This document shows positions 32,516 through 59,629 of a DNA stretch of 64,000 nucleotides, in pieces. Below the pieces are notes generated by a model. It did no database searches. It was given only the letters and a program-made list of their open reading frames with translations, and was not told the origin of the DNA. The DNA lies in contig NZ_PJON01000001.1 of the NCBI RefSeq assembly GCF_002900975.1, forward strand, positions 434,001 to 498,000, read 5' to 3'. A program made the translations under genes and the position numbers. The DNA comes from Tabrizicola aquatica (GTDB taxonomy: Bacteria; Pseudomonadota; Alphaproteobacteria; Rhodobacterales; Rhodobacteraceae). Each line of letters begins with the position of its first letter. The first letter of the stretch is position 1.

Positions 32516-34150
32516 TTATGCAAGCGACCACTTGTAGTGCAGGTGGTCGTTGGACGGGTGCCGCTCGACGTTGAAGCCTTCCTTCACGTGGGCGAAGAGC
32601 GAGCGCCAGTAGGGCTGGATGATATAGCCCTCATCCTGCACGATCGCTTCCATCTTCGCCATGACTTCGCGCCGGGCATCGGCATCGGCCAGCGCCAGAG
32701 CCTGGGTCATCAGGTTGTCGAACTCGGCATTTGCCATGCCGGTTTCATTCCAGGACCCCGTGGACGTATAGGCCAGCGACATGTTCTGGACCGCCAGCGG
32801 GCGGTGGTTCCAGGTCGTGGAGCTGAACGGATACTTCTGCCAGTCGTTCCAGAAGGTCGAGCCCGGCATGACCGTGTGCTTCACGTTCAGGCCGGCGTCC
32901 TTCAGCTGCGCCACCACGGCGGCGGTGGTCGCAGCTTCAAAACCGTCGTCCAGCGAGATGACCTCGAACTCGGTGTCAGTCAGACCCGCGGCAGCCAAGG
33001 CCGGGGCCAGCTTGGACGGGTCGATCACCTGGGCCGGCAGCGGGGCATATTCCGGGTGAACCGGGCAAGCGTGGTGGTTTTCCGCCGTGGTGCCCAGGTT
33101 GTTGTAGCCCAGTTCCAGCACGACTTTCGGATCGACGGCCAGCTGGATCGCCTGACGCACGGCCTTGTCCTTGTAAAGGTCCGAGGTGGCCGAGTTCATC
33201 CGCACCACGATCGTGGCGGCGGTGACGACTTCCAGCTTCTTCCAGCCAAGCGCGTCCATCTGTTCGATGAAGTCGCCGGTGGTTTCATAGTTGCAGTCGA
33301 TCTCGTCCGAGGCGGCGAGGTTCACCATGGTCGACGGGTCGGTGCCGAAGTCGATGTAGTGGATCTCGTCCAGGGGCGCGGTGCCACCCCACCAGGTGTG
33401 GTTCGGCGCGCGGACCAGAATGGCCTTCTGCCCGACGGAGACTTCCTGCGGGACATAGGGCCCGGTGCCGATCGGGTTGGTTGCCGGGTCCGATCCGTCG
33501 ACAAAGCTGGAGTGGACAACAGCGCAGGGATAGTCGGCGACGTTCGGGACAATCGCCACGTCCGAGGACGAGAGGTTCAGCTGGACGGTGTAGTCATCAA
33601 CCTTGACCACCGCACCTTCGCGCAGTTGCTTGGTCGTTGCGTCGGCCAGGCCCGGGAAGCGGCTGGCGGTCGAACTGCCTTCGACGTTGCCATCGGCCCA
33701 GCGGGCAAAGTTGCGCACCACGTCGTCGGCGGTGAAGGGATCACCGTTGTTCCAGGTGATGCCCTGGCGGACCTTCAGCGTGTACTGGGTGGCGTCGGCG
33801 TTGGCTTCCCAGCTTTCCAGCAGGCGGCCTTCGAAGGTGCCGTCGGCGTTGTACTGGATCAGGTACTCCAGCCAGCCGCGATAGATGTTGGAAATCTGCG
33901 GCCAGTCGGCCAGGCGCGGGTCCTTGGTGCCCTTCACTTCCATGGCGCAGCGGATCACGCCGCCGACCTTGGCCTCTTGCGCCTGGGCCGGGGCGGGCAG
34001 GCCGATCAAGCCATAGGCGGCTGCGGCGGACACGCCCAGCGCGGTGGAACGGGACAGGAACTCACGCCGGCTGATCTTGCCGGCAGAATATTCTTCTGCA
34101 TGCATCCGGGCCGCCGGGTGCAGCCGGGTGGCGTCGGTCTTGTGGGTCAT
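32516..34150 (-). CDS. Peptide-type ABC transporter substrate-binding protein (Tat-exported)
   Basis: A 544-residue periplasmic binding protein of the SBP family 5 (DppA/OppA-like). The N-terminus carries a twin-arginine signal ([11 protein letters not shown], then [11 protein letters not shown] and AQAQE). The family signature region appears as [20 protein letters not shown] and FTADDVV, and the C-terminal half has the usual [12 protein letters not shown]-type helix. The ligand may be a peptide or another oligomeric solute. It is the first gene of its operon, preceded by a 236-base gap and an AraC gene on the same strand. Confidence 0.9.
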
Positions 34151-51129: not shown

Positions 51130-56094
<4,965 letters not shown>

Positions 56095-56119
56095 GGCCGT
56101 CGCAGGGAGTTTTGCCTTC

Positions 56120-56144
56120 GTTCTCAAATGTTCTTAAAAAGTTC
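56120..56144 (+). promoter_or_regulatory. Alphaproteobacterial LexA (SOS) box
   Basis: GTTC-N7-GTTC occurs at 56130-56144 (GTTC TTAAAAA GTTC), with a third GTTC at 56120-56123. Direct GTTC-N7-GTTC repeats are the LexA operator of Rhodobacter and Caulobacter. It lies 56 bases upstream of the preferred start of the small membrane protein. Confidence 0.7.
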
Positions 56145-56199
56145 TTTACAGGGTTAACGATCTATGAGAACAATTCAGCAACACATCATGGAGGACGCG

Positions 56200-56322
56200 A
56201 TGAAAGACGCCATGAATACCCTGCTGACACATTCTCCGAAAGGCGCTGTCGAGGATCTGGTCGGCCTTGCCGCGCTGTTTGTGATCGTTTTCGCCGTGCT
56301 CTCGTTGCCCGGCCTCGCCTGA
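56200..56322 (+). CDS. Small single-pass membrane protein, probably SOS-induced
   Basis: A 40-residue protein starting MKDAMNTLLTHSPKGAVEDL and ending in a hydrophobic segment, VGLAALFVIVFAVLSLPGLA, enough for one membrane pass. GGAGGA lies 5 bases before the ATG at 56200; in-frame ATGs at 56164 and 56188 give longer forms. A LexA-type box stands upstream and a strong terminator downstream, so this is a self-contained transcription unit. SOS-induced mini membrane proteins such as SidA of Caulobacter block division; by analogy this may do the same. There is no sequence proof of that role. Confidence 0.62.
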   Translation: MKDAMNTLLTHSPKGAVEDLVGLAALFVIVFAVLSLPGLA

Positions 56323-56406
56323 CGTTTTCTGCCCCGCGCTCTGTCCCCCAAGGGTGACGGTCCGCCTTGCCTGGCCCACCGTCCGCCGTTTCCAGACGCG
56401 CTACTG

Positions 56407-56441
56407 CCGCCGCCATCCCTTCGGATGTGCGGCGGTTTTTT
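56407..56441 (+). terminator. Intrinsic terminator after the small membrane protein
   Basis: Stem CCGCCGCCATCC with GGATG-T-GCGGCGG around a short CTTC loop, followed by TTTTTT (56436-56441). It ends the recG/small-protein transcription and abuts the stop codon of the convergent scaffold gene. Confidence 0.88.
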
Positions 56442-56884
56442 CATGCGGCGGCCAGGGCAAGCTCCGTCGCCTCGCAGGCGGCGTCCAGGGCCAGTAGGAT
56501 CGAGGCGTGGCGGTTCTTGTAATCGCGGGCGGGGAGAAGAACCTCGTAGCCATCGAAGGGTGCGGCCGGGACCGGGCCTGCCTCCTTCAACATGGCCCGC
56601 AGGGCGTCGCGGGCTGCGACAAGCTCGCCAAGGGTGCGACCGACCGCGACCCCGCCCAGCACCGCAGCCGAGGCCTGGCCGAGGGCGCAGGCCTTCACGT
56701 CCTGGGCGAAGTCGGCGATGCGGCCGTCCTTCACCACCACATCCACCGTCACCGTCGAGCCGCAGAGAGGCGAGCGTTTCCGGGCCGTCCCTTGCGGCGC
56801 GGCCAGCCGGCCGTGGTGCGGGATATCGGCGGCCAGCGCGAGGATGCGGGCGGAGTAAAGCTTGATGAGGTCGCTGTCGCTCAC
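56441..56884 (-). CDS. NifU/IscU-like iron-sulfur cluster scaffold protein
   Basis: A 147-residue protein of the NifU N-terminal (IscU/SufU) family. Cys ligands C41 (SPLCGSTVTV) and C66 (KACALGQASAAVL) are present. In the place of the third family Cys (LHCSVL in IscU) it has NRHASIL, an Ala, while the preceding His is kept; C137 comes later and is not equivalent. Cluster assembly on this scaffold may therefore differ, or it may serve transfer. Divergent from hisI across 84 bases. Confidence 0.82.
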   Translation of the reverse strand: MSDSDLIKLYSARILALAADIPHHGRLAAPQGTARKRSPLCGSTVTVDVVVKDGRIADFAQDVKACALGQASAAVLGGVAVGRTLGELVAARDALRAMLKEAGPVPAAPFDGYEVLLPARDYKNRHASILLALDAACEATELALAAA

Positions 56885-56968
56885 GTGGAATGATCGCCTT
56901 CGCTCATGGTATGTCCCCTCTGAGGGCTGTATGTAGCCCCGCGTTGACCGCCTGCCAAGGAGAGAGCC

Positions 56969-57340
56969 ATGCCCTTTGATCCGGCCACACTGAAGTATGA
57001 TGCGGCGGGGCTGGTCCCTTGTGTCGCGCAGGATGCGGGGTCGGGCGAGGTGCTGATGGTCGCCTGGATGAACGCCGCCTCGGTCGCGGCGACGCTGGAG
57101 ACGGGGAAGGTCACCTATTGGTCGCGCTCACGGGGGGCGTTCTGGGTGAAGGGGGAGTCCTCGGGTCACCATCAGCGGCTGGTGGAGCTGCGGGTGGACT
57201 GTGATCGGGACTGCTTGCTGGCCCTGGTCAGCCAGGAGGGGCCGGCCTGCCACACCAACCGGCGGTCCTGCTTCTATACGGCGGTCCGGGACGGGGAAGA
57301 GGTCGAGATCATGGTTCCTGTCCACGGTGGACAAAACTGA
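56969..57340 (+). CDS. hisI: Phosphoribosyl-AMP cyclohydrolase
   Basis: Third step of histidine synthesis. The 123-residue single-domain enzyme has VLMVAWMNAASVAATLETGK, TYWSRSRGAFWVKGESSGH and zinc/magnesium ligands in VDCDRDCLL and CHTNRRSCFYT. No HisE domain is fused to it. GGAGAG upstream fits the start. Its 3' end contains the second copy of a 15-base palindrome. Confidence 0.94.
   Translation: MPFDPATLKYDAAGLVPCVAQDAGSGEVLMVAWMNAASVAATLETGKVTYWSRSRGAFWVKGESSGHHQRLVELRVDCDRDCLLALVSQEGPACHTNRRSCFYTAVRDGEEVEIMVPVHGGQN
57319..57333. repeat. 15-base palindrome, copy 2 (inside the hisI 3' end)
   Basis: TGTCCACGGTGGACA is the exact reverse complement of the sequence at 15879-15893. It encodes the hisI residues around PVHGG, 5 bases from the stop codon. 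Confidence 0.6.
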
Positions 57341-57375: not shown

Positions 57376-58221
57376 TTAGGGATTTGGTAACCCGACCATC
57401 CGGCGGATGTCGGCTGGGGTCGCGCCCTCGGCCCGGTACTTCTGGATCGCCCGCGCATCGTCGCGCTTCGCCAGCCGCTTCCCGGCCGCGTCGCGGATCA
57501 GCCGGTGGTGGTGATAGATCGGCGTCGGCAGGTTGAAGAGGCGCTGCAGGATCACCTGCACCGGGGTAAAGTCGAACAGATCCTCGCCCCGGATCACATG
57601 AGTCACGCCCTGGTCGGCATCGTCAAAGGCCGAGGCGAGGAAATAGGCCACGATCTCCTCGCCCTTGCGCGACAGGACCACATCGCCAATCCGGGCCTGT
57701 GCCTCAACCGCGTCGATGCGGTGCAGGCCGGGGTGGGCCGGGCCGGTTTCGGTGAAGCTGAGGTCTTCCGTCCCAAGCAACGTCAACGCGGCGGCAAGGT
57801 CCAGGCGCAGGGCATCGCCGGGCAGGCGCGAGGTCATCGGGCGGCCGCGACAGGTGCCGGGATAGACGTTGAAGGCCACGCCCTCTTGCGGGGCGGCAAG
57901 CGCGGCGCGGATGTCCGAGCGGGTGCAAGAGCAGGGGTAGAGAAGGCCTTTGTCTTCAAGGGTTTCAAGGCGGGTGTTGTAGCTGGAGATGTGCGGCGCC
58001 TGGCGATGGATCGGGCCGTCCCAGGTCAGGCCAAGCCAGCGCAGGTCGTCCTGGATCAGCGCGTCATACTCGGGCCTGCAGCGGTCGAGGTCGGTATCTT
58101 CCATCCGCAAGAGGAACCTGCCGCCGGCGGCGCGGGCCATGTCGTGGGCCAGGATGGCGGAATAGGCGTGGCCCAGGTGCAGGGGGCCAGTCGGACTGGG
58201 GGCGAAGCGGGTTACGAACAT
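57376..58221 (-). CDS. gluQ: Glutamyl-Q tRNA(Asp) synthetase
   Basis: A truncated GluRS paralogue that glutamylates queuosine in tRNA(Asp) without using a tRNA(Glu). The 281-residue protein has the HIGH-type motif FAPSPTGPLHLGHAYSA, zinc ligands in YPCSCTRSDI and YPGTCRG, VIRGEDLFDFTPVQ and the KMSKS counterpart KRLAKRDDARA. It lacks the anticodon-binding domain, as expected. The start at 58221 lies 76 bases after trmFO on the same strand. Confidence 0.93.
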   Translation of the reverse strand: MFVTRFAPSPTGPLHLGHAYSAILAHDMARAAGGRFLLRMEDTDLDRCRPEYDALIQDDLRWLGLTWDGPIHRQAPHISSYNTRLETLEDKGLLYPCSCTRSDIRAALAAPQEGVAFNVYPGTCRGRPMTSRLPGDALRLDLAAALTLLGTEDLSFTETGPAHPGLHRIDAVEAQARIGDVVLSRKGEEIVAYFLASAFDDADQGVTHVIRGEDLFDFTPVQVILQRLFNLPTPIYHHHRLIRDAAGKRLAKRDDARAIQKYRAEGATPADIRRMVGLPNP

Positions 58222-58297
58222 GGTGGCCCGTCCCAGGCCTGACCCCGGACCGTCCGGGCTGCATGAGGCGCGGGGGCCGGGGCGGGGGCGGGGTTTC

Positions 58298-59629
58298 TTA
58301 CGCGGCGAGCCATGCTTGGAACGCCTCTTTCGCGCGGTCCGTATAGGCCTTGTAGCGGACGGCACGGCCCTTGCGGCCGCCCCTGGCGTCAATGGGGGGG
58401 AAGAGGCCGAAGTTCACGTTCATCGGCTGGAAGGTCTTGGCCTCGGCCCCGCCGGTGATGTGGGTGACAAGCGCGCCCATGGCGGTTTCGGGTGGCGGGG
58501 GCGGCAGGGTTTCGCCCTTGATTTCGGCGGCGGCCATCCGGCCCGCGAGCAGGCCCATCGCGGCGCTTTCGACATAGCCTTCGACGCCGGTGATCTGGCC
58601 GGCAAAGCGGATATGCGGGTGGCTTTTCAGCCGCATCTGGCTGTCCAGAAGCGTGGGCGAGTTGATGAAAGTGTTGCGGTGGATGCCGCCAAGGCGGGCA
58701 AAGCTGGCGTCCTGCAAGCCGGGAATCATTTTCAGGACAGAGGTTTGCGCGCCGTACTTCATCTTGGTCTGGAAACCGACGATATTGTAGAGCGTGCCCA
58801 GCTTGTTGTCGCGGCGCAGTTGCACCACGGCATAGGGCTTCTGGTCCGGCTTGTGTGCGTTCGTCAGGCCGACGGGCTTCATCGGCCCGTGGCGGAGGGT
58901 CTCGCGGCCGCGTTCGGCCATGACTTCGATCGGCAGGCAGCCGTCGAAGTAGCCGGCGGTCTCGCCCTCGTGAAACTGGGTCTTTTCCGCTGCGAGAAGG
59001 GCGTCGATGAAGGCCTCATACTCGTCACGGGTCATCGGGCAGTTGATATAGGCGCGTTGTTCTTCCTCGGTCTCGCCCTTGTCGTAGCGGCTTTGCATCC
59101 AGGCGGTGTCCATGTCGATGCTGTCGGCATAGACGATGGGGGCGATGGCATCGAAGAAGGCCAGCGCCTCGGCCCCGGTGGCGGACTTGATCGACTGCGC
59201 CAGCGCCGGGCTGGTCAAGGGGCCGGTGGCGATGATCCAGTGGCCGGATGAAGGAAGCTCGGTAACCTCTTCATAGGACGTGGAAATCAGCGGGTGCGAT
59301 TTCAGCTTTGCCGTCACCGATTGCGCAAAGGGGTCGCGGTCGACGGCAAGGGCGCCACCGGCGGGCAGGCGGTGTTTCTCGGCCATCTCCATCACCAGGC
59401 CGCCGGCGGTGCGCATTTCCCAGTGCAGCAGGCCTACGGCGTTCTGTTCGTGGTCGTCCGAGCGGAAGGAGTTCGAGCAGACCATCTCGGCGAAATCGCC
59501 GGTACGGTGAGCGAAGGTGGCGACCTTGGGCCGCATCTCGTGCAGCACGACGGGGATGCCGGCGTTCGCGGCGGCCCAGGCGGCCTCGGTTCCGGCCATG
59601 CCGCCGCCGATGATGTGAAGTGTGTCCAT
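58298..59629 (-). CDS. trmFO: Methylenetetrahydrofolate-tRNA-(uracil-5-)-methyltransferase TrmFO
   Basis: FAD and folate-dependent enzyme making ribothymidine at U54 of tRNA. The 443-residue protein has the FAD site [20 protein letters not shown] and the two conserved Cys in [10 protein letters not shown] and [13 protein letters not shown]. The start at 59629 ([10 protein letters not shown]) is clear. Together with gluQ it makes a tRNA-modification pair. Confidence 0.95.

Follow-up and report, generated by a model that had tools for sequence, protein, structure and literature searches.

A gene for a 40-residue membrane protein lies immediately behind recG in Tabrizicola aquatica, and comparison across genomes gives good support to a conserved small single-span protein under predicted LexA-type control. 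The gene itself, the selection on its coding sequence, its GTTC-N7-GTTC box, its promoter, its conservation and the hydrophobic span of its product are supported by the data given below. We propose, with a probability of about 0.5, that the gene belongs to the SOS response and that its tiny product acts as a checkpoint in the inner membrane, delaying cell division in a SidA-like way. The window, that is, the whole stretch of DNA analysed, comprises 64,000 nucleotides of contig NZ_PJON01000001.1 (positions 434,001 to 498,000), and within it the small transcription unit sits between recG and a convergent SufU-like gene, with the following features in and around it (window coordinates).

54010-56094, + strand: recG, the 5' neighbour of the small ORF (NCBIfam NF008164 RecG, 1108.7 bits)
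56120-56144, + strand: three GTTC half-sites (56120, 56130, 56141), the predicted LexA operator (from the sequence)
56145-56174, + strand: predicted sigma-70 promoter, TTTACA-N18-AACAAT (promoter scan)
56168-56182, + strand: second, imperfect LexA-type site, GAAC-N7-CAAC (from the sequence)
56190-56195, + strand: ribosome binding site, GGAGGA (from the sequence)
56200-56322, + strand: ORF of the 40-residue single-span membrane protein, ATG at 56200, stop codon included (profile, dN/dS-like ratio, invariant residues)
56406-56441, + strand: Rho-independent terminator, hairpin 56406-56436 leading into six T at 56436-56441 (fold)
56441-56884, - strand: SufU-like gene, convergent (46.5 bits, under the model cut-off of 92.5)

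The initial annotation had described a GTTC-N7-GTTC box with a third GTTC, a GGAGGA ribosome site, a tiny protein with one membrane span and a terminator, all behind two DNA repair genes, and each of these elements was found again at the positions listed, the other repair gene 5' of the small ORF being that for the NAD-dependent DNA ligase LigA, which like RecG was assigned by NCBIfam. The half-sites at 56120 and 56130 are separated by six bases (N6) and those at 56130 and 56141 by seven (N7), and the resulting box at 56130-56144 (GTTCTTAAAAAGTTC) adjoins the -35 element. A scan of 55900-56900 for promoter-like sites gave TTTACA-N18-AACAAT alone (mean 0.0 and sd 0.2 in shuffled sequence), and the GAAC-N7-CAAC site, which was absent from the initial annotation, overlaps the -10 element and the predicted transcription start. 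The terminator stretch (56375-56445) folds at -29.4 kcal/mol (z -4.62), and none of 200 shuffles was as stable; the hairpin at 56406-56436 was not in the output of a generic terminator scan. Longer forms of the protein were considered in a comparison of 49 loci with upstream bases, from which one short locus (L043) was left out. A 52-residue form from the in-frame start at 56164 is unlikely, its start being inside the predicted promoter and its frame being off by one base in several relatives, and a 44-residue form from the in-frame start at 56188 is also unlikely, this ATG being missing in two loci (L019 and L020).

Among 20 loci of the genus, the pairwise differences at codon positions 1, 2, and 3 numbered 1486, 613, and 2940, respectively, and the dN/dS-like ratio was 0.133 (all pairs, relatedness uncorrected); by this comparison the ORF is under purifying selection. 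The length was exactly 40 residues in 80 of 91 unique loci. In these 80 members Asp19 and Gly22 are invariant (80/80), while Leu34 is kept in 79, Pro37 in 76 and Leu26 in 74. Hydrophobic residues predominate at positions 20-36 (judged by composition), which, with the length of 40 residues, agrees with the very short single-span inner-membrane proteins of the SidA family. Lysine or arginine is common at position 6 (80%) and position 11 (83%), and neither occurs at positions 19-40 in the 80 members. The positive-inside rule is the basis for reading membrane topology, and because of this distribution of basic residues the protein reads as having its N-terminus inside and its C-terminus outside, with about four residues beyond the membrane. 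Variation is greater in the N-terminal part than in the span, so that the span with its polar edge is probably the working part.

The protein is not confined to Tabrizicola. The single protein as query gave matches in 31 of 32 genomes of the genus and in 84 of 295 genomes of Rhodobacteraceae, and a profile built from 34 members (A1) matched 270 of the 295 at E≤0.1 (240 of 260 among good assemblies), 247 of these matches being at E≤1e-5 and 23 being weaker. In an order-wide draw the profile matched 145 of 149 genomes at E≤0.01, and every listed genome belonged to Rhodobacteraceae. In a class-wide draw of 385 genomes, which included at least five members of Rhodobacteraceae, 19 matches were obtained at E≤0.05; five were strong, all of them in Rhodobacteraceae, and the other 14 were partial, weak matches in other families (E 0.003-0.043), which we take as chance. 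The small protein thus seems to be present in most of the Rhodobacteraceae genera tested and to be specific to this family, as far as a 40-residue profile and our sampling reach. Several genomes (G033, G129, G249, G261, and others) gave two or three profile matches each, and the extra ones are either chance matches or second copies. As for a mobile origin, the protein of a relative as query gave no phage match and one plasmid record only, so that the gene is not like a phage gene or an ordinary plasmid gene. That record is a 1.58 Mb replicon of Pseudorhodobacter turbinis, deposited as a plasmid, which carries a copy (NZ_CP039965.1:332590-332709, - strand) 72.5% identical to the relative's protein; this replicon may be a chromid or may hold a moved core region.

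The initial annotation had regarded the box, ribosome site, ORF, and terminator as a complete miniature transcription unit. That the unit is complete and of SOS type is well supported by comparison across loci, but in a single genome the box by itself is close to what chance would produce: the window holds two copies of GTTC-N7-GTTC where 1.39 are expected (38 of 100 shuffles had two or more), and genome-wide there are 101 matches against 88 for the reversed control pattern. The only other occurrence in the window, at 34047-34061 (- strand), has a GC-rich core (GTTCCTGTCCCGTTC), and two per window is within chance. Since the box is not significant in a single genome, conservation across genomes was used instead, and it is this conservation that makes the box significant.

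For this purpose, 98 loci were drawn from the best single-protein matches, the best profile matches and 40 further listed profile matches, and with the window's own locus they gave 99 rows, of which 91 were unique after removal of identical ones. The sampled profile matches were all about 1e-12 or stronger, and the first locus set overlaps the 34 rows of A1; the short locus L043 is included in the box counts. An exact GTTC-N7-GTTC was found within 160 bases upstream in 90 of the 91 unique protein-selected loci, including 40 of the 40 further loci, and recG was upstream in 86 of the 91. Conservation of frame and box in relatives, which had been suggested as a check, was therefore observed for both the protein (270 of 295 family genomes) and the box (90 of 91). 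The third GTTC was present in 78 of the 90 box-bearing loci, the downstream site GAAC-N7-[GC]AAC in 83 of 90 (the perfect form GAAC-N7-GAAC in six of 90), and the 15-base gap from the -35 region to GAGAACA was identical in 73 of 90. Five loci (L025, L033, L046, L321, and L332) keep box and protein, while RecG was not found upstream within loci of about 1.5 kb; the small unit may be able to leave recG.

The association also held in the reverse direction. When the exact promoter pattern was scanned over contigs of GTDB genomes, blind to the protein, at least 118 places were found, and among the matches listed 116 of 118 encode the protein (>15 bits, within 400 bases), with recG upstream in 114 of these 116. 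The places listed lie in what we take to be Rhodobacteraceae/Rhodobacterales genera, or in MAGs labelled Alphaproteobacteria, Pseudomonadota or Paracoccaceae. Of the two misses among the matches listed, one runs into the end of its locus, and the second lies in Paracoccus amoyensis (L178), whose intact promoter is followed by a divergent 32-residue hydrophobic ORF; this ORF resembles the protein in its Asp...Leu-Pro layout and may be a minimal form of the span. Allowing up to three mismatches, the promoter was found in 85 of the 91 protein-positive loci and in none of the 20 protein-negative genomes searched (of 25 negatives). Among the 23 weakest protein matches it was found in five, all behind recG and with hydrophobic ORFs of 39-47 residues among the frames that follow, which we judge to be divergent relatives; the remaining 18 may be chance protein matches or may have diverged promoters.

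The same type of box, on the opposite strand, precedes lexA and recA in the genus. GAAC-N7-GAAC stands before lexA in all 17 loci examined (in the 17th, which is incomplete, at the right offset) and before recA in the 17 of 17 loci that reach far enough upstream; 18 genomes of the genus had a recA match, and L304, which starts at a contig end, was left out. In carriers from other genera, 18 of 19 lexA promoters have the box within 250 bases, and the 19th (L359) has it at -258. In non-carriers, 11 lexA loci were examined out of 15 with a lexA match, and nine of the 11 have the box within 250 bases, L374 offering just 170 bases upstream. Together with the operator found at the promoter of the small gene in 90 of 91 unique protein-selected loci, LexA control of this gene is well supported by comparison, and membership of the LexA regulon is claimed at the level of sequence only. 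Of the 20 protein-negative genomes searched, 15 retained a lexA match, which indicates that the gene is dispensable in some lineages and that its loss is not simply loss of lexA; of the 20 carriers searched, 19 had such a match. The absence of a lexA match from five of 20 negatives and one of 20 carriers gives no clear link between the two losses (one-sided Fisher 0.09). Five genomes (G039, G060, G064, G198, and G225) had neither a small-protein match nor a lexA match, G039 and G064 being less than 90% complete; G090, a protein-negative genome, had only a partial lexA match below the cut-off, and G100 is a carrier with no lexA match.

No convincing match to the small protein was found in Pfam, NCBIfam or PHROGs, and Rfam was likewise empty. 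For the 34 members of A1, Pfam gave one single-member match (E 0.025) and no LysM domain, NCBIfam two single-member matches (E 0.067 and 0.074), and PHROGs none at E≤0.01; the 52-residue form gave PA2779_fam in NCBIfam (E 0.09, 12.9 bits against a cut-off of 40) and nothing in Pfam, and Rfam gave no match at E≤1 in 55900-57000. Elsewhere in the window, NCBIfam gave nothing at E≤1e-5 for two overlapping frames (57505-58239 and 58220-59248, both + strand) that lie between gyrA and a hisI-like gene. Literature searches in open-licence PMC papers named no such gene, and no description of the coupling of DNA damage to division in Rhodobacteraceae was found there. The word recG does not occur in the main text of the Dinoroseobacter LexA paper, and the predicted LexA targets compared from its text do not include the small gene (PMC6473078). 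The small protein would represent a new protein family within a known kind, that of SOS-induced small membrane proteins.

How such a protein would act may be outlined as follows. In the undamaged cell, LexA would keep the promoter shut by occupying both the phased GTTC repeats that adjoin the -35 element and the imperfect site that overlaps the -10 element. Upon DNA damage, RecA would trigger cleavage of LexA, and a short mRNA of about 56181-56440 would be made. Its 40-residue product would insert into the inner membrane with the basic N-terminus on the cytoplasmic side, leaving a short Pro-Gly-Leu-like tail outside. The span, bounded by invariant Asp19 and Gly22 at one end and by Leu34 and Pro37 at the other, would dock on a membrane complex, of which the septal cell-wall synthase FtsW/FtsI/FtsN is the likeliest, so that division would be delayed until repair is complete. 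We favor this SidA-like role because the size, the apparent topology and the predicted regulation fit SOS-induced small membrane proteins. The SidA-like block of division is an analogy, and FtsW, FtsI or FtsN as the direct target is held with somewhat lower confidence than the role of division inhibitor; the sequence gives no pointer naming FtsW.

Two alternatives concern the gene and its regulator. That there is no gene here, and that what is conserved is a promoter or a terminator with an ORF beside it by chance, is exceedingly improbable. The promoter and the protein are conserved to about the same degree, as such an account would have it, but the codon-position differences (1486, 613, and 2940), the dN/dS-like ratio of 0.133 over the 20 genus loci and the length of exactly 40 residues in 80 of 91 unique loci all speak for a coding sequence. 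It is very unlikely, too, that the GTTC repeats are read by another regulator and that the gene lies outside the SOS response. The motif extends well beyond a single LexA box, its AT-rich core is unlike the boxes of lexA and recA, and 15 of 20 genomes lacking the gene keep a lexA match, all of which would suit such a regulator; on the other side stand the GTTC-N7-GTTC on the opposite strand at lexA and recA of the same genus and, for carriers belonging to other genera, the box that 18 of 19 lexA promoters have within 250 bases.

Granted an SOS-induced membrane protein, its action might be different from the one proposed. An adaptor for another target, such as a membrane protease, a transporter, a respiratory complex, or the machinery of DNA uptake or of gene transfer agents, is the strongest competitor, one that we still regard as unlikely. 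Polar, glycine and proline residues that are conserved within the span and next to it would suit a helix packing against a fixed partner, which they do not name, and confinement to one family, as far as sampled, would fit a lineage-specific partner as well; however, the window neighbors (ligA, recG, and the SufU-like gene) offer no link to another system, and the SOS-induced small membrane proteins discussed in PMC13396833 act on late division. Far less probable is a TisB-like peptide, which would depolarize the membrane and favor dormancy. Small size, a single hydrophobic span and LexA-type control are what one would expect of it, but there is no Rfam match within 55900-57000, the predicted leader is short, no lysine or arginine occurs in or after the span, and a near-universal presence at one conserved place under strong purifying selection is unlike a type I toxin. 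We therefore retain the SOS division checkpoint as the preferred reading. In its fullest form, which we put forward tentatively and at slightly less than even odds, the protein would be the missing SOS division checkpoint of Rhodobacteraceae, a new family unrelated to SulA, SidA, and YneA, in which a near-bare Asp-x-x-Gly...Leu-x-Leu-Pro helix, expressed from a multi-site LexA promoter of unusual conservation, halts the synthesis of septal wall.

Members of Rhodobacteraceae abound in aquatic habitats and serve as laboratory models; a near-universal 40-residue gene with its own damage-type promoter offers a direct test of how damage and division are coupled in them. The case also illustrates how curated protein-family libraries can lack a gene that is close to core in a large family.

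TisB of Escherichia coli is an SOS-induced, LexA-controlled short membrane peptide and a type I toxin with an antisense RNA. The small protein resembles it as a short membrane peptide under (here predicted) LexA control, but no counterpart of such an RNA was found at 55900-57000 among the described RNA families of Rfam; the predicted leader in the window is short. YneA of Bacillus subtilis binds TM7 of FtsW through its span and blocks septal wall synthesis, and it requires its extracellular LysM domain for activity (PMC13396833). YneA and ChiZ of Mycobacterium tuberculosis are similar to the small protein in being DNA-damage-induced with one span, but both carry LysM outside, for which the approximately four residues after the span of the small protein leave no room (PMC13396833). 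SosA of Staphylococcus aureus is likewise an SOS-induced membrane division inhibitor, without LysM (PMC6851548; PMC13396833), in another phylum. DidA of Caulobacter is a small single-span division inhibitor induced by DNA damage, but it has 71 residues, is induced by DriD rather than LexA, and binds FtsN (PMC4211646).

Also among the closest counterparts is SidA of Caulobacter crescentus, a 29-residue SOS-induced inhibitor that blocks division through FtsW (PMC4211646; PMC13396833). Both proteins are alphaproteobacterial and tiny, with an inner-membrane location and LexA control, the latter being predicted for the small protein. They differ in length (29 against 40 residues), SidA being compared by description only, and outside Rhodobacteraceae the profile gave nothing but weak and partial matches, found in 14 genomes of the class-wide draw of 385; we claim no membership of the SidA family. 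It has been proposed that SidA, SosA, and ChiZ also meet FtsW, on models that are not high-confidence according to their authors (PMC13396833). The place of the SOS-induced small membrane inhibitor is filled by unrelated proteins in different lineages, and the Rhodobacteraceae protein, if our reading is true, would be an independent case for the proposed convergence of SOS membrane inhibitors on FtsW (PMC13396833), in a form that is little beyond one helix.
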